Below are positions 2 to 20,732 of a stretch of DNA of 20,965 nt, one piece after another (position 1 is the first letter of the stretch; every line of letters begins with the position of its first letter). The notes under the pieces were generated by a model. It was not told the origin of the DNA. It saw only the letters and a program-made list of their open reading frames with translations, and did no database searches. Made by a program: the position numbers and the translations under genes. The stretch covers positions 1 through 20,965 of the IMG/VR virus record IMGVR_UViG_3300021963_000783; one strand, 5' to 3'. Source of the DNA: a virus.

Positions 2-1141
2 TCTCAGCGTGGGGTACTGGTATCACAGCTAAATGGGGCAAGCAGCGTCCCGTTGTCTCAAATCTTTTTCCTTGTTTCGGACGCAAGCCGTTTTGTGCTT
101 TGCTTTGGAACCAATGATATTGGCGCAACTACAGTCAACCCACTCCTGATCCGCTGGTCTGACCAAGAGAGTGCGGTGGAATGGTCACCAGCAATTACCA
201 ATCAGGCAGGTAGCATCACCCTGTCTCATGGCTCGACCATTGTGACGGCTATCCAGAGCAAGCAAGAGATTGTGGTGTTTACAGATGCTGCTCTGTACTC
301 GCTCCAGTACCTTGGCCCACCCTATGTCTGGGGGTCACAGTTGCTTGCCGACAACACCTCTATTTGCGGCCCAAATGCGGTGGCCTTGGCAGCGGGGATT
401 ATTTACTGGATGGGCGTAGACAAGTTCTACAAATACGATGGACGGCTGCAAACCCTCAACTGCGACCTACTCAGGTATGTCTACAACGACATTGCAAGAG
501 ATCAGTTTGATCAAGTCTATGCATCCACCAATGAAGGTTTTAATGAGGTGTGGTGGTTCTACCCCAGTGATGGCTCGACAACCAACGACAGCTATGTGGT
601 CTTTAACTACGTAGAGAATGTCTGGTACTACGGCACTATGGCACGAACTGCATGGCTAGACAGCGGCCTGCAAGACTACCCAGTTGCAGCCACCTACAGC
701 AGCAACCTTGTCCAGCATGAACTGGGTGTGGATGACGTTACCACGGGTACTGCCGTTGCAATCACTGCATTCATCACCTCGTCCCAGTTTGACATTGGTG
801 ATGGGCACAACTTTGCTTTTGTCTGGAGGATGCTGCCTGACCTAACCTTCAACGGCTCCACAGACGGGACAACACCCAGCCTGACCATGCAGCTTCTGCC
901 ATTGCAGAACTCTGGCTCTGGTTTCAACAACCCCAAGTCAGTCGGTGGAGATAGCAGCAGCGCAGAAGGAGTTGTAACAGCCACCCAGACCTACCCCATT
1001 GACCTAGACACCTACAACGGACAGTTGAACATCCGGGTCAGGGCAAGGCAGATGGCTATGAAGATCAGTTCAAACACCATTGGCACACAGTGGCAGCTAG
1101 GCGCTCCAAGAATTGACATCAGACTTGATGGTAGACGCTGA
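2..1141 (+). CDS. Tail nozzle / packaged-DNA stabilisation-type protein (5' partial)
   Basis: The frame is open from the left edge of the window, so the gene is 5'-truncated; the first TTG in frame (53) is not a convincing start because sense codons continue upstream. About 380 residues are visible. They are rich in Trp, Tyr, Ser, Thr and Asn with alternating hydrophobic residues, as in an all-beta protein. Motifs that resemble podovirus nozzle proteins (P22 gp10 / T7 gp12 type) are LIRWSDQES near the start, PYVWGSQLLADNTSICGPNA in the middle, and a C-terminal RVRARQMAMKI...GTQWQLGAPRIDIRLDGRR stretch. In that family the protein extends the portal as a beta-propeller tube and holds packaged DNA in. 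It ends in TGATG, overlapping the next start by one base. The assignment rests on remembered sequence flavour and gene context, not on an alignment; a generic tail protein is the alternative. Confidence 0.6.
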   Translation, partial: SQRGVLVSQLNGASSVPLSQIFFLVSDASRFVLCFGTNDIGATTVNPLLIRWSDQESAVEWSPAITNQAGSITLSHGSTIVTAIQSKQEIVVFTDAALYSLQYLGPPYVWGSQLLADNTSICGPNAVALAAGIIYWMGVDKFYKYDGRLQTLNCDLLRYVYNDIARDQFDQVYASTNEGFNEVWWFYPSDGSTTNDSYVVFNYVENVWYYGTMARTAWLDSGLQDYPVAATYSSNLVQHELGVDDVTTGTAVAITAFITSSQFDIGDGHNFAFVWRMLPDLTFNGSTDGTTPSLTMQLLPLQNSGSGFNNPKSVGGDSSSAEGVVTATQTYPIDLDTYNGQLNIRVRARQMAMKISSNTIGTQWQLGAPRIDIRLDGRR

Positions 1142-1458
1142 TGGCACAAAAGAACGTAGTAGCCCCCCGGCTACCTAGCCCCCCACAGGAGTATGACCCT
1201 GTTTACATGAACCAACTGTTGAGTTTGTTGCGTCTGTACTTCAACCAACTGGACAACGCAGGGCCAATGGCAGGGTCTACCCAAACTAACGGAACCGATG
1301 TAGTATCGGGATTGAGTTTTTTCCCCACGTCTGGCACATCCCCCAGCCTGCCAACAGACGCCGAATTTGCCAGCTTGCGGATCGGGGACGTTTACAGAGA
1401 CACCCAGAACGGTGTGATGAGCAACAACCAAACGCTTAAAATAAAGACCTCGTTATAG
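1141..1458 (+). CDS. Small conserved phage protein, probably tail-associated
   Basis: A 105-residue protein whose ATG overlaps the stop of the nozzle-type gene (TGATG), implying translational coupling. The N-terminus is Pro-rich and basic (KNVVAPRLPSPP). It is followed by an amphipathic helix (residues about 20-40, YMNQLLSLLRLYFNQLDN). A Gly/Ser/Thr-rich middle leads to a short C-terminal segment, LRIGDVYRDTQNG. There is no signal peptide, membrane segment or catalytic motif. The helix plus flexible tail would suit a small adaptor or accessory protein of the tail, but that is inference from position only. The function is unknown. Confidence 0.75.
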   Translation: MAQKNVVAPRLPSPPQEYDPVYMNQLLSLLRLYFNQLDNAGPMAGSTQTNGTDVVSGLSFFPTSGTSPSLPTDAEFASLRIGDVYRDTQNGVMSNNQTLKIKTSL

Positions 1459-1466
1459 GACCAAAC

Positions 1467-4400
1467 ATGGCAACCACCCCAAATGGCATTATGACCCTCC
1501 CTGAGAATGATCAGATGGGGGCTCCGCAACTCAGCCTCAATGAGTCCTATGATGCAATGCGCCAAGGGCTCCAGAATGCACGTCCAGATGCTGCTGCGGA
1601 CGTAAATTCCACTATGGCCGAGATCCTTCCGCAATTGGACGGGATGCCAGATGATGTTATTGACAAGCTCCTACAGACCGTACAGTATCTCAAAGACAAC
1701 CCAGATCAGTATGCCGAGATAGTGGCCAAACTAATCAGTATGGGCGTGGTCAAAGAAGGGGACTTCCCCCCTGAATATGACCCGGAGTTTCTTGCCACCA
1801 TGGGCATTGTCCTGTTGGAAGCGCAGCGTTCCCGCTCACAGGCCCCCTTACAGCCCACTGGTTTTGCCAGTGGCGGCCTTGCCGATGCAGCGCGGATCAT
1901 GGCAGCCCAAGGCAGGGGCCGAGATTCAATGTTGGCACACATTACCCCCGGTGAGGCCAATTTATTGCGCTCTCGCGGGGGCATGGGAACCAGAAATCCG
2001 TCCACCGGACTACCTGAATACGGCTTCCTTGATGACCTTTGGAGCGGGGTCAAAGGAGCAGTTACCGGCGTTTTTGACGCTGTAAAAGGTGTTCTAAAAA
2101 GCCCTATCGGCAGGGTTATCGGCACTATAGCGTTGGGCGCGTTCCTCGGTCCGGGGGCCTTTGGCATTACTGGACTGGGTCTTGGGGCGGCAGCCGCGCC
2201 CCTTGCTTCTGGGATTATTTCCGGTTTGTCCGGCGGCAGCGCCATGGACATGCTGACCAGCGCAGCGACTTCCTATTTGGGTAGCGCCGCCAGCCCACTA
2301 TCTCAGTATATAGGTGGGATGACCTCGGGCCTCGGACTTGGACCAATGGCCTCACAGGCTCTGACCAGCGGCCTTGTTGGCACTGGGGTAGGCCTGCTGA
2401 CCGGAAGAAGCCTAGAGGATTCTGTTTCATCCGGCCTGCAAGGGGCCGTGATGAACACCGCCATGGACTACATGAACTCAAATAAGGTCCCTGTTTCAGG
2501 TGCAGACAGTGCCCCGGTCAGTGACGCTGTGGCCAAGCCTGTTCCGGGGTTAGCCGGGGACATTGGATCTGGTTTAAAAGCAGACAACTTTAAATCTCCG
2601 TATGCGTTGGAAGCCCCCGCAAGCGGGGGACTGGGTCTTAGGCCCCTCGCAGGCATGGAGGGAATCAACCCCAGCACAGGTATTAATTTACGAGGCGGTA
2701 TTGCTCCTACTCGTGTAGCTGAAACTACTTCTGCTCCTACAAGCTACCAGTCCCCTGACCTGATGGATTCCATGGGAAAAATGTTTCAGTCGGGCAGGTT
2801 CATGGAGGGAGCCAAAGACACATTCTTTCCTTCCGGCCCGACAAGCGCACAAGTTACAGGAAGCACAGAGTTTAAAAATCTAAGGGATGCGGGTTTTTCT
2901 GCTGAAGAGGCTTTTAAAAGAGCGTCAGACACCCTATCCCCGGGCATGCTTAGGCAGTATGGTCCTTTAGCTGGCCTTGGAATAATGGGGCTAGCGGCCA
3001 CTGGCGGGTTTGATCAAAAGCCCATTCAACAGTCCGCTGTTAATGCTAGTTTGACAGGGGGAGCAGGCTCCTACCAAGATCTGATGGCCAAGAACCCAAG
3101 AAAGTATTACGTACAAAATCTGCCGGGTGTTTTGTATGATGACAACGGAGCCATCATTGGGTATCAAGGGCCCGGTGGCTCCCGCCAGCTATATAACCAA
3201 GGCGGCGCTGTGGGCTACGCCGAGGGCGGAGAAGCCGCTACTTGGGACGGCCCTGCTTGGGGCCCAAATTCAATGGTCTATCCAAGCATTGCTGCGGCTA
3301 TTGCTGCTGGCGTCCCTAGGAACAAGCTATTCAAAACAGCATTAGAGGCCTATCGAGGAAAGGCCAATGTGGTTACTCCGTATGTACCTCCAGTAGTGCC
3401 TCCGGTAGTACCTCCGGTAGTACCTCCAGTAGTGCCCCCAGTTGTACCAGTTGTACCTCCGGTAGTTATAGAAACTCCCGGTGGTGGTCAAGATAAAACA
3501 CCCAATACGACGCCTATTGAAAACAACGGGTTTTTCTCAAGTATCTTAGGGCGCACCACGCAACCCGCAGCACCTGTCGAGGACAGAATAGCAGATGCTA
3601 AAACAATGGCAGAAATAGTAGGGATACTTAACGGTCTTACAGTATCCGGTGCGGATATATCCGGGGGGCAATTTGCTGGACCTACAGGCCCTTCAGCAGC
3701 AAACCCAATGTCGCAAGATCCAGCACAGCAGGCACAAGCAGCTACCACCACTTCTGGAATTGCGTCATTAAGTGCCAACCCTGATTTTGAAGCAAGACAA
3801 GATGAAGCGGATGCCGCAGTTGTGGCGAGTAACAACGCAGCAAGAGAGGCGGCTATAAGGGACGAGGCTGATAAGAACACAAGCACTGCTGCTGTTGCTA
3901 CACCAACTGCCACAGCAGGGGGTGTGTATGTAGATGCAAAAAATGCAGCAGCAGCACAAGCAATGCAGGAAGCAAATGCGGCAACCATTGCGGGTTTTGG
4001 TGTTGACCCGGGTTCGCGTGATTCTGGTAGCGCAAGAGGTGGCGAAGGTGATGGCGGTGGCGGCGCAAGAGGTGACGGTGGCCAAGGGGCGACAGGTGGG
4101 GGCTATCAAGCCAAAGGCGGCTACATAGGCGGTTACGCGCATGGTGGCATCATGGGGCTTAATAAAGTAAGGCGGCTCTACGATGGGGGTGATGCTGCGG
4201 GCGATGGCTACGGCGAAGGCGCTGGAGCGGCGCAAGGCGCGGGTGTGGGAGGCTTTGGAAGTAGTGGTGAAGGTTACGGTGACGGTGACGCTGGCGACTA
4301 TGTTACTGTTTCAGAAACTACAAATACAGCGAAGGGGACTCCTGCGTATAGCATGGCAGCTATGCATAATTCTCCAAATCCTATATTTGGGGGCTATCCA

Positions 4401-4784
4401 AACGCTGTTCAAGTCTCAAATGTAGACCAAGATAAGTCAGCAACAAGCAACACTTATGGTTATCAAAATCCGCAGCAAGCTGCGGATGCGTTTGCCTCGT
4501 TTGCTGCTGAACAGAGCATGAGAAATAATGACCGTGCCAAGGGCGGTTACATGGGCTCCAATGGCATTGCTTCTTTGCTCCAAGGCGGGTATCCTAGGAA
4601 GATAGGCGAGATAGCCGGTCCGGGGACCGGCACTTCTGATGACATCCCTGCAATGCTTTCCGATGGTGAATTTGTCATGACCGCAAAAGCCGTTCGCGGT
4701 GCAGGCAAGGGCAGCCGACGAGATGGCGCAAAGCGTATGTATGCACTAATGCATCAACTTGAACGTAACGCAGCACGGGGATAA
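1467..4784 (+). CDS. Large Gly/Ala-rich virion protein with VPP repeats
   Basis: A 1105-residue protein with ATG at 1467 and an AGGA site at 1457-1460. The first ~125 residues look like helical bundles. FASGGLADAARIM (from residue 133) and the RDSMLAHITPGEANLLRSRGG element (about 152-172) are of a kind I associate with phage structural proteins. Residues about 214-260 form a long hydrophobic Gly/Ala segment that could insert into or cross a membrane. Residues 641-667 are a VPPVVPP-type repeat, and residues about 850-945 are almost pure Gly/Asp/Ala. The C-terminus (about 1051-1071) carries GTGTSDDIPAMLSDGEFVM, which resembles the C-terminal part of tape-measure or internal virion proteins. Size, low complexity, membrane-active segment and late-operon position suggest an internal, ejected or tail-core protein. 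No peptidase or muramidase motif was found. The precise role is unknown. Confidence 0.7.
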   Translation: MATTPNGIMTLPENDQMGAPQLSLNESYDAMRQGLQNARPDAAADVNSTMAEILPQLDGMPDDVIDKLLQTVQYLKDNPDQYAEIVAKLISMGVVKEGDFPPEYDPEFLATMGIVLLEAQRSRSQAPLQPTGFASGGLADAARIMAAQGRGRDSMLAHITPGEANLLRSRGGMGTRNPSTGLPEYGFLDDLWSGVKGAVTGVFDAVKGVLKSPIGRVIGTIALGAFLGPGAFGITGLGLGAAAAPLASGIISGLSGGSAMDMLTSAATSYLGSAASPLSQYIGGMTSGLGLGPMASQALTSGLVGTGVGLLTGRSLEDSVSSGLQGAVMNTAMDYMNSNKVPVSGADSAPVSDAVAKPVPGLAGDIGSGLKADNFKSPYALEAPASGGLGLRPLAGMEGINPSTGINLRGGIAPTRVAETTSAPTSYQSPDLMDSMGKMFQSGRFMEGAKDTFFPSGPTSAQVTGSTEFKNLRDAGFSAEEAFKRASDTLSPGMLRQYGPLAGLGIMGLAATGGFDQKPIQQSAVNASLTGGAGSYQDLMAKNPRKYYVQNLPGVLYDDNGAIIGYQGPGGSRQLYNQGGAVGYAEGGEAATWDGPAWGPNSMVYPSIAAAIAAGVPRNKLFKTALEAYRGKANVVTPYVPPVVPPVVPPVVPPVVPPVVPVVPPVVIETPGGGQDKTPNTTPIENNGFFSSILGRTTQPAAPVEDRIADAKTMAEIVGILNGLTVSGADISGGQFAGPTGPSAANPMSQDPAQQAQAATTTSGIASLSANPDFEARQDEADAAVVASNNAAREAAIRDEADKNTSTAAVATPTATAGGVYVDAKNAAAAQAMQEANAATIAGFGVDPGSRDSGSARGGEGDGGGGARGDGGQGATGGGYQAKGGYIGGYAHGGIMGLNKVRRLYDGGDAAGDGYGEGAGAAQGAGVGGFGSSGEGYGDGDAGDYVTVSETTNTAKGTPAYSMAAMHNSPNPIFGGYPNAVQVSNVDQDKSATSNTYGYQNPQQAADAFASFAAEQSMRNNDRAKGGYMGSNGIASLLQGGYPRKIGEIAGPGTGTSDDIPAMLSDGEFVMTAKAVRGAGKGSRRDGAKRMYALMHQLERNAARG
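3387..3467 (+). repeat. 12-bp tandem repeat encoding PPVV units
   Basis: Seven consecutive units of the form CCTCCGGTAGTA (variants CCTCCAGTAGTG, CCCCCAGTTGTA) lie in frame within the large virion gene. One unit is shortened to nine bases (3447-3455). Two adjacent copies, 3399-3410 and 3411-3422, are identical. The array encodes a rigid polyproline-type spacer between the hydrophobic N-terminal half and the Gly-rich C-terminal half. Copy number could change by slippage in steps that keep the frame. Confidence 0.9.
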
Positions 4785-18193: not shown

Positions 18194-18420
18194 GAAAGAT
18201 TATTGGTTACGACGATTCGGTTATTGGCCCTGCCATGATCTGGCACAACAACACACAGGTGGAGGTGCTGGTCTACGATGCAGAATCCCTTCGCAATAAG
18301 CTGGTGTCCGAGGGCATGAGCAGGGAAGAGGCTCGGGAGTACATTGAGTTTAATATTGAGGGCGCGTACATGGGCCCTGACACGCCAATCCTTGTCTGGA
18401 CAGAGGATGTATGGCTGTAA
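18190..18420 (+). CDS. Small acidic phage protein between primase and helicase
   Basis: A 76-residue protein. The start is a TTG that overlaps the primase stop (TTGA), supported by AAGGGAG seven bases upstream. The sequence is acidic: MIWHNNTQVEVLVYDAESL, then SREEAREYIEFNIEGAYMG, then TPILVWTEDVWL. It reads as strand, helix-turn-helix, strand. There are no Cys or catalytic motifs. I recall similar small unnamed proteins in phage replication loci. Overlap on both sides (4 bp with the primase, 10 bp with the helicase) makes it a genuine coupled gene. The function is unknown. Confidence 0.8.
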   Translation: MRKIIGYDDSVIGPAMIWHNNTQVEVLVYDAESLRNKLVSEGMSREEAREYIEFNIEGAYMGPDTPILVWTEDVWL

Positions 18421-20732
18421 TCAACAAGGTCTTCGGCCCTCCCGGCAGCGGCAAGACGACTCACCTGTTGGGCGTTGTTGACCGGGAACTCGCGGAGGGC
18501 GTTTCCTCACTGAAGATTGGCTACTTTTCCTTCACCAGAAAGGCTGCTACCGAGGCCAAGGAACGGGCAATCGTGAAGTTCCCCGGCTTGAACGAGAAGA
18601 CGGACTTCCCTTACTTCCGCACCCTTCACAGCTTGGCCTTTCACTGCCTGTCGGTGCACCGGGACGACATGATGCAGCCGGATCATTACAAGGAATTTGC
18701 CCTTGAAGCAGGCATTGAACTCTCCCTCGTCCAAGAGGACGAGGATGTGGCAACAACCAAGGCAGACAACCCAATACTCAATGAGATCAACCTTGCAAGA
18801 ATACGGGGCACGGACCTCAAGCAGCACTACAACCAAAGCGGCCTTGATATAGAGTGGCATCACTTTGAGTTTGTTGACCGCACCTACCGGCACTACAAGA
18901 ACAGCCGCAGTCTGCTGGACTTCACTGACCTGCTTGAACTGGTTGTGCAGGAGGCTGATGCGCTTCCCATGTTGGAGACGGTGATAATTGACGAAGCGCA
19001 AGACCTTTCTAGGCTACAATGGCAACTTGTGGAGTGCCTAGCTAAAAGAAGCAAAAAGATGTATTTAGCCGGAGATGATGATCAATGCCAGCCGGGACAC
19101 ACAAAAGTCCTGACCATTGACGGCCCTGTCCTGATGCAGGACCTTGACCCCCAGCAGCATCGTCTTGTGTGTTATGACCAGAGGGGCTCTGCGGTGATTG
19201 GGACAAGGAGCGGGTTTGCCTTTAAGAAAGCCCAGCGCCCCCATACCGGGAAGATGTACACAGTATCCACCTCCTCGGGCCTTGCCTCAAGTTACACAGA
19301 AAACCATCACTGCATCGTGCGCTGGAAGCCGCTTCAGGAGGTTCTTCCTCTGCGTGTGGTCTACCTGATGGAAAAGGAAGGCAACTATCGCGTTGGACAG
19401 TGCCAACTTTTTAGGGCTGACGGCTGCGTTCACGCTTGGGTGCGGGCTCATGGCGAAGGGGCTGATCGCATGTGGTTTTTAAAGGTGGTGGATTCCCAAG
19501 AAGAGGCCACTTACTTAGAAAATTACTTCTCATATCGGTACGGCATACCTCAGACAGTGTTTTGCGCCGCAACGAACTCTCGGGTGTTTTCCCAAAACAC
19601 CATTGATCGGATATTTAAAGATGTCCCTACTTACGCCCAAGCGCGACAACTGTTGCAGGACATGGGCGTGTCTTTTGACTATGCCATCTATGATAAAGCC
19701 ATTATTCGTAAGCGTCGAGGCGGCTCTCAGATATTTACCACGCATGCAGCCTGCTTGATACCAGAGGCCATGCGTTTAGGGCATGCCGAGGGAAAATCTC
19801 TTGTGTGGGAAAACTTTTCTCTGTCTGTGCAGACTCAATCAAGTCCGGTGTACTCGCTGCAAGTAGAAAAGCATCACAACTATTTCGCGGACGGCATCCT
19901 GACGCATAACTGCGTGTTTACATGGGCCGGGGCAGATGTCAAGAGCTTTTTGTCCTTCTCTGGCACTGTCGAGGTCCTCCAACAGTCATACCGTATTCCA
20001 AGCACCGTCCATGCCTTAGCCGAGAACATTGTTCAACGCATTCATGAGCGCCAGCCCAAGACATGGCGGCCAAGGGACTTCGATGGCTCCGTCATGACTT
20101 ACTCCCGCTTTGAGGACGTGCCCATAGGTGACGGCGAGTGGTTGGTGATGGCCACTACCAACTACCTGCTCAACCCAATACATGAGTGGTTCAAAAGCAC
20201 GGGCCTGCTGTTTGAGCGCGGTGGAGTCAACAGCCTGCCCACCAGCGTGACAAAGGCCATTGCAGATTGGGAGCGCCTTCGTCTTGGCCAGAGCGTAGGC
20301 TCTGGGGCCATTCGCAATGTCTACCGCTACCTTGGTACTGATTTCATTGCAAAGGGGCACAAGGGCTTTAAAAACGGCCTTCCTGACATGGTCTACAACC
20401 ATGCAGAGCTATGCTCGGACCACGGCCTACTGACCGCGCTTGTCTGGCATGAGGCCCTGACCAAAATCTCCGATGCCAACCGTGAATATTTCATGGCTGT
20501 GCTCCGCCGTGGCAGGAAGTTCTCGCCCGTGCGTCTGTCTACAATCCACGGGGCCAAAGGCGGGGAGGCGGACAATGTCCTGCTGATCATGGATTTGAGC
20601 CCAAAGTCCTGCAAGGAGTACGTTGTAAATTCCGACAACCTTCACCGCCTTTTTTATGTAGGGGTTACCCGCACCAAGAAAGCGTTGCATTTAGTGCTAC
20701 CCAAGAACGCAGAAAAAGGCTTTCGGCTATGA
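18411..20732 (+). CDS. UvrD/Rep-like superfamily 1 DNA helicase with intein
   Basis: A 773-residue precursor: helicase 1-225, intein 226-500, helicase 501-773. Splicing would give a 498-residue helicase. Motifs: GPPGSGKTT (Walker A, 9-17), FSFTRKAATEAKER (Ia), TLHSLAF (71-77), VIIDEAQDLS (II, Asp194-Glu195), AGDDDQ (III, 220-225) rejoined to CVFTWAGA, QQSYRIP with Arg528 (IV), STIHGAKGGEADNV (V, 710-723) and YVGVTRTKKALH (VI, 749-760). This is the UvrD/PcrA/Rep layout, but shorter than the roughly 700-residue cellular enzymes, so the accessory 1B/2B domains are reduced. A phage helicase of this size would unwind or remodel forks for the primase and polymerase encoded either side. The ATG at 18411 has GAGG upstream. 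The stop overlaps the polymerase start (ATGA). Confidence 0.92.
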   Translation: MAVINKVFGPPGSGKTTHLLGVVDRELAEGVSSLKIGYFSFTRKAATEAKERAIVKFPGLNEKTDFPYFRTLHSLAFHCLSVHRDDMMQPDHYKEFALEAGIELSLVQEDEDVATTKADNPILNEINLARIRGTDLKQHYNQSGLDIEWHHFEFVDRTYRHYKNSRSLLDFTDLLELVVQEADALPMLETVIIDEAQDLSRLQWQLVECLAKRSKKMYLAGDDDQCQPGHTKVLTIDGPVLMQDLDPQQHRLVCYDQRGSAVIGTRSGFAFKKAQRPHTGKMYTVSTSSGLASSYTENHHCIVRWKPLQEVLPLRVVYLMEKEGNYRVGQCQLFRADGCVHAWVRAHGEGADRMWFLKVVDSQEEATYLENYFSYRYGIPQTVFCAATNSRVFSQNTIDRIFKDVPTYAQARQLLQDMGVSFDYAIYDKAIIRKRRGGSQIFTTHAACLIPEAMRLGHAEGKSLVWENFSLSVQTQSSPVYSLQVEKHHNYFADGILTHNCVFTWAGADVKSFLSFSGTVEVLQQSYRIPSTVHALAENIVQRIHERQPKTWRPRDFDGSVMTYSRFEDVPIGDGEWLVMATTNYLLNPIHEWFKSTGLLFERGGVNSLPTSVTKAIADWERLRLGQSVGSGAIRNVYRYLGTDFIAKGHKGFKNGLPDMVYNHAELCSDHGLLTALVWHEALTKISDANREYFMAVLRRGRKFSPVRLSTIHGAKGGEADNVLLIMDLSPKSCKEYVVNSDNLHRLFYVGVTRTKKALHLVLPKNAEKGFRL
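19086..19910 (+). mobile_element. Intein (275 residues) in helicase motif III
   Basis: It begins at Cys226 (CQPGHTKVLTIDG, splicing block A). Block B is MYTVSTSSGLASSYTENHHC, with the Thr-x-x-His motif at intein residues 71-74. The end is VYSLQVEKHHNYFADG (block F) and ILTHN (block G), followed by the +1 Cys of the helicase. All residues needed for splicing are present, so it should excise itself and join GDDDQ to CVFTW. Intein residues about 125-235 are an insert beyond a mini-intein core. No LAGLIDADG, HNH or GIY-YIG endonuclease signature is seen there. Confidence 0.93.

Follow-up and report, generated by a model that had tools for sequence, protein, structure and literature searches.

The question raised by this locus is what is encoded in the middle of an intein that interrupts a viral helicase gene. 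The window, i.e., the whole stretch of DNA analysed, is an entire virus record of 20,965 bases and probably a genome fragment. The initial annotation had described the insert within the intein as lacking any standard homing endonuclease motif, and had suggested a novel or decayed endonuclease or a DNA-binding domain. Our computations covered domain limits, GIY-YIG profile and topology, active-site conservation, purifying selection, sporadic insertion and decay in one lineage. From these we consider it quite probable that the insert is a divergent GIY-YIG homing endonuclease, nested within the Hint splicing domain of a mobile intein.

Helicase Gene and Intein

An open reading frame of 773 codons on the plus strand (18411-20732) encodes a UvrD/Rep-like superfamily 1 helicase and is interrupted in frame by the intein. 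Matches were obtained to Pfam UvrD-helicase (3.4e-23) and UvrD_C_2 (5e-9), and to the PHROGs family phrog_1967, DNA helicase (4.9e-69). The exteins are located at 18411-19085 and 19911-20729, and the intein of 275 aa at 19086-19910, all on the plus strand. The intein corresponds to residues 226-500 of the helicase frame, starts with C1 (19086) and ends with N275 (19910), and is placed after GDDDQ in helicase motif III, with the junctions GDDDQ/CQPG...ILTHN/CVFTWAGA. All splicing residues were present, i.e., C1, T71-x-x-H74 of block B, H274, N275 and Cys+1, and both T71 and H74 were kept in 49/49 aligned family members. The intein matched NCBIfam intein_Cterm (5.7e-8) and, under the Pfam curated cut-off, Pfam Intein_splicing (6.4e-6). 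The 275-residue intein reported in the initial annotation was thus borne out by reading frame, junctions, splicing residues and profile matches, and the peptides quoted there were found in it. Since the splicing residues are complete, the intein would be expected to splice itself out and join the two helicase halves. Elsewhere in the window, positions 1467-4784 contain an open reading frame of 1105 residues with a proline-valine repeat run (VVPPVVPPVVPP).

Limits and Composition of the Insert

The Hint splicing domain begins with residues 1-88 (19086-19349, plus strand), which include C1 and block B; the Foldseek matches of the whole-intein model are inteins. The intein segment 3' of the insert, running to N275 (19746-19910, plus strand), gave the intein_Cterm match. 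Between them lie residues 89-220, an inserted domain of about 130 residues (about 19350-19745, plus strand), which are surplus relative to Hint-only inteins. A natural mini-intein of 149 aa without the entire insert was found in a viral/phage adenine methylase (L019, 2501-2947), at the same methylase site as the insert-bearing inteins L004 from Streptococcus and L020 from Providencia, with 56% identity to L004 in the best segment. The insert occupies the usual loop from block B to the C-terminal Hint segment, and its homologues that were examined all lay within inteins, as one would expect of a mere Hint elaboration with a role in splicing. We find this reading hardly credible, since the homologous mini-intein does without the insert, the insert modelled alone folds with high confidence, and its most conserved residues are not splicing residues. 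A Hint extension only, an outcome which the initial annotation had named as speaking against its own reading, is excluded.

The interval originally drawn around the puzzling sequence, 19458-19790 (residues 125-235), captured the second half of the insert; it starts mid-insert, however, and ends within the Hint domain. The G+C content of 19501-19740 was 45.8%, in agreement with the earlier hand count of about 46%, while the exteins had 52.7% and 54.6%, not 57-58%. The dip is modest, because 4.6% of the 240-nt windows of the contig have equally low values, and for the same reason a foreign origin of the insert is only weakly argued from G+C.

Profile Comparison and Predicted Fold

Searched alone against Pfam, NCBIfam and PHROGs models, the insert gave no match, and a Pfam scan of all 49 aligned members returned no nuclease, GIY-YIG, HNH and LAGLIDADG included; family scans and profile libraries thus miss these GIY-YIG-like inserts. 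In hhalign, the insert profile compared with a GIY-YIG profile built from Pfam-recognised proteins gave a probability of 93.4, a score of 40.4 and an E-value of 2.6e-7. For 200 column-shuffled profiles the mean score was 10.5 (sd 2.3) and the best probability 8.5, placing the real score 13 standard deviations above, and the reversed profile control gave 0.2. The Y, G and E of the insert fell on their GIY-YIG counterparts. LAGLIDADG and HNH were rejected as identities of the insert (hhalign probabilities 1.28 and 0.17, respectively, and no Pfam match for either). A match to a known endonuclease family, which the initial annotation had named as evidence against its own reading, was therefore obtained by profile-profile comparison. 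This comparison favours UvrC/URI-type GIY-YIG over T5orf172 and MUG113, both of which gave values near zero with small test alignments. As those alignments recognise even ordinary GIY-YIG poorly, T5orf172/MUG113 may still be the closest subfamily.

The AlphaFold2 model of the whole intein had a pLDDT of 96.1, and the insert modelled alone formed the same elements (pLDDT 93.3). Residues 90-152 (19353-19541, plus strand) form the predicted divergent GIY-YIG core with the order β-β-α-β-α, i.e., b1 90-97, b2 100-107, a1 116-123, b3 128-135 and a2 138-152. The core is followed by a C-terminal tail (19542-19735, plus strand) with the YGIP-x-x-F segment and two predicted helices, 170-179 and 183-192, a candidate DNA-contact region. 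Our guess from the model is that these tail helices, 170-192, would be the likeliest DNA-reading part. The block E-x3-..S-x-x-YGIP-x-x-F, which according to the initial annotation seemed to recur in other inteins, was indeed found in dozens of them.

A Foldseek search with the whole-intein model was uninformative on the insert, as the matches listed were Hint or intein entries. Among the viral models of BFVD the top three hits spanned the entire insert, and two of these carry the names helicase and adenine methylase. The next matches (E 3.5e-3 and weaker), where named, were mostly GIY-YIG or related nucleases, including a Moumouvirus intron endonuclease (probability 1.00), group I intron endonucleases, T5orf172, MUG113 and SegE-like proteins. 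In the PDB the first rank was taken by 1zg2, a UPF0213 protein, with a weak score (E 0.12, probability 0.21), and this search is insufficient alone for a GIY-YIG assignment. The weak PDB score and the lack of a direct HMMER match would suit convergence, in which another nuclease or DNA-binding fold of separate origin came to resemble GIY-YIG. Such convergence appears very improbable to us given the distance from the shuffled profiles, a signal specific to GIY-YIG among the three homing endonuclease families tested, and the occurrence of Y, G and E in register on the same topology. Profile, fold and Foldseek results combined suggest that the insert is likely a member of the GIY-YIG superfamily.

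Conserved Residues

Conservation was counted in 74 distinct inserts, and separately in the 49-member alignment. The 74 inserts display the motif order Y-L-M ... R-[VI]-G ... R ... W ... A-x3-E, which, judged by sequence, is the GIY-YIG signature with Arg replacing the YIG tyrosine. The order Y...R-[VI]-G...R...A-x3-E was kept across phages, plasmids and bacteria, at an insert identity of about 20-35%. The earlier statement that a standard homing endonuclease motif is missing was therefore mistaken: the signature begins about 100 nt before the interval examined, with Y93, R-V-G and R120 ahead of it and A-x3-E (A141, E145) inside.

The equivalent of the GIY tyrosine and proposed general base is Y93 (19362-19364, plus strand), found in 74/74 inserts and aligned by hhalign to the GIY Tyr. 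R102-V103-G104 (19389-19397, plus strand), aligned to YxG, takes the place of YIG; the glycine was present in 72/74 inserts, and the position of the tyrosine was held by Arg in 74/74. E145 of the A-x3-E motif (19518-19520, plus strand; 69/74), aligned to the Glu, is the putative equivalent of the catalytic, metal-binding glutamate. W130 at the start of b3 (19473-19475, plus strand) is specific to the family and invariant (74/74). For the GIY-YIG arginine (I-TevI R27 / Hpy188I R84) the proposed counterpart is R120 (19443-19445, plus strand), present in 71/74 inserts within helix a1, 116-123. This equivalence rests on topology, because R120 sits 16 residues past G104 instead of 8 as in GIY-YIG; the resulting shift of 8 residues leaves it out of the hhalign register, owing to a longer b2-a1 loop. 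A conserved His/Tyr at the a1 position was not seen in the insert family. Nor was there an invariant C-terminal Asn (motif E) in the 49 and 74 inserts, the YGIP-x-x-F position being F/W/Y; in the 2006 superfamily survey, this motif is given as missing in the accepted GIY-YIG member Slx1 (PMC1564403).

The restriction enzyme Hpy188I has Lys73 at the position of the YIG tyrosine, yet it cuts DNA (PMC2630997); Y63, K73, H76, R84, Y88 and E149 have been proposed as its catalytic residues (PMC11975286). Since an accepted member has Lys there, the YIG tyrosine is not strictly defining. Replacement of the YIG Tyr by a basic residue is thus compatible with catalysis in one enzyme at least.

Insertion Site, Selection and Possible Decay

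Related helicases (n=80, 47-74% identity across 74 flanking residues) were compared at the junction. The site was empty at the same codon junction in 76/80, and the intein was present in 4/80; the intein is therefore a precise, sporadic insertion into helicase motif III. In the empty alleles the +1 residue was Ala in 75/76 and Cys in 1/76. The only empty allele with Cys+1, L164 (GDDDQ/CIFTWAGADV), is possibly the scar left where an intein was precisely lost, or else an acceptor already suited to one. A single clade of all intein carriers was rejected on the tree of 65 helicases (p-AU about 1e-8), which requires at least three changes and has some long branches. The inteins aligned at the helicase site of the window were 53-62% identical to the window intein. 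This pattern and identity fit lateral spread, with repeated loss as the alternative. No clear co-conversion tract was found in the flank comparison at the junction, because the flanks of carriers were more alike than they were to empty alleles both near the junction and farther away.

In close pairs (dN below about 0.13), dN/dS was 0.06-0.14 for the insert and 0.05-0.19 for Hint. The insert values are as low as those for Hint, and the insert is therefore maintained by selection. The remaining 5/74 inserts with regard to E145, all in cyanobacterial chromosomal UvrD inteins (L027, L028, L030, L040 and L042), had Val at this position. Some members of this lineage also had R120Q or R120L, and one branch had G104A. 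Loss of R120 was confined to members without E145, and loss of G104 to a subset of those without R120, while Y93, R102, W130 and the splicing residues were kept. Stepwise loss of E145, R120 and G104 could look like decay of a homing endonuclease. The window insert retains all proposed active-site positions; the initial annotation was thus right in pointing towards an endonuclease, whereas its suggestion of decay does not hold for this copy.

These losses also bear on whether the domain could have the GIY-YIG fold but not, or never, act as a double-strand endonuclease, being instead a module that binds DNA, nicks it or has a regulatory role, comparable to its T5orf172/MUG113 relatives. Every member has Arg for the YIG Tyr, T5orf172 and MUG113 examples read KIG or RIG there, and T5orf172-type proteins are among the Foldseek matches. 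We nevertheless regard such a module as unlikely. E145, R120 and G104 are near-invariant and were lost solely in the one lineage in which E145 is gone throughout, a pattern we counted against it because it is expected of catalytic residues; furthermore, Hpy188I cuts DNA with Lys at that position (PMC2630997), and the profiles, albeit with small test alignments, favour the UvrC/URI type over T5orf172/MUG113.

For a GIY-YIG homing endonuclease we infer splicing, target recognition, DNA cleavage and homing as follows. After translation the Hint domain would excise the intein and ligate the helicase halves. The intein, free or still fused, would recognise intein-free motif III DNA (coding for GDDDQ/A-[V/I]-[F/Y]-T-W-A-G-A-D-V) through its helical tail, perhaps together with the surface of the Hint domain. 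The predicted GIY-YIG site, with Y93, R102, R120, E145 and a metal ion, would break the DNA at or near the junction. Repair templated on an intein-bearing copy would then spread the intein and convert Ala+1 into Cys+1. In this manner the nuclease domain probably lets the intein copy itself into new genomes.

Comparison With Known Systems

In LAGLIDADG and HNH inteins a homing endonuclease domain is nested at the same place in Hint; nearly every homing endonuclease identified in an intein is of the LAGLIDADG type, HNH accounting for a few. Their nucleases differ from the insert in being unrelated to it (hhalign probabilities 1.3 and 0.17). A close known counterpart is the intein of the UvrD-like helicase of Bacillus phages SPO1 (gp34.33) and CampHawk, which shares the UvrD-like extein, the motif III region (GDDDQ) and the length of 275 aa. 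It is 37-38% identical to the window intein over the whole length and has all six motif residues, but carries Ser+1 instead of Cys+1, and its records say just "intein", with no endonuclease type. With the GIY-YIG superfamily (I-TevI, the UvrC N-terminal domain, URI/UPF0213 and Hpy188I) the insert shares the predicted β-β-α-β-α fold, the Y/G/R/E order, with R120 as the proposed arginine, and A-x3-E. It departs from them in the YIG Arg, the longer b2-a1 loop, the intein setting and the lack of a C-terminal Asn motif. Hpy188I, likened here by its basic residue (Lys73; PMC2630997), is in turn a restriction enzyme, not intein-borne, and has Lys, not Arg.

The papers on inteins consulted treat mainly LAGLIDADG, with HNH. 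The 2006 survey of the GIY-YIG superfamily places the domain in group I introns and not in inteins (PMC1564403), and one review lists GIY-YIG among homing endonuclease families generally, with no intein example in that passage. No report of a GIY-YIG intein was found in the open literature, as far as its texts were available; priority is not established, because most subscription papers were outside the search. The Hint and GIY-YIG modules are both known, and it is their pairing that is unusual. It seems reasonably likely that a widespread intein family, located in helicases and DNA methylases of phages and bacteria, carries an Arg-type GIY-YIG homing endonuclease, and that this is the first GIY-YIG class in inteins. 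If active, it would represent another nuclease lineage that independently took the same Hint niche. Inteins about 270-350 residues long in which no endonuclease is recognised, that of the model phage SPO1 included, would then be candidate active mobile elements and a source of new site-specific cutters, and a GIY-YIG site of the unusual Arg type could be studied in them.

Distribution of the Insert Family

By tblastn and profile searches the same insert was found in SPO1-like Bacillus phages, Streptococcus suis phages, Vibrio phage RYC, phi92-like coliphages and a Klebsiella phage, on plasmids of Providencia, Thermobispora, Stanieria and Nostoc, in genomes of several phyla, and on 52 IMG/VR contigs. 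A search with the insert profile only in about 880 genomes of three phyla gave 12 places in 11 genomes, and those examined were all within inteins. The exteins were UvrD-like helicases and N6/N4 DNA methylases, each with several insertion points, and three other proteins; the exteins of the insert-bearing L050, L063 and L081 matched no Pfam family. On the Providencia rettgeri plasmid NZ_CP077319.1 the methylase-plus-intein frame (L020, 858-2963) is open and absent from the plasmid gene table. In L006/L009, L007, L024 and L043-L045 the insert is longer: a P-H-[WH] motif is followed by roughly 80-90 additional residues, possibly a further DNA-binding part. L007, from Klebsiella phage KP13-16 (ORF 240-3836), has two inteins within one helicase, one at Walker A with a different, larger insert and the other after GDKHQ with the GIY-YIG-like insert.
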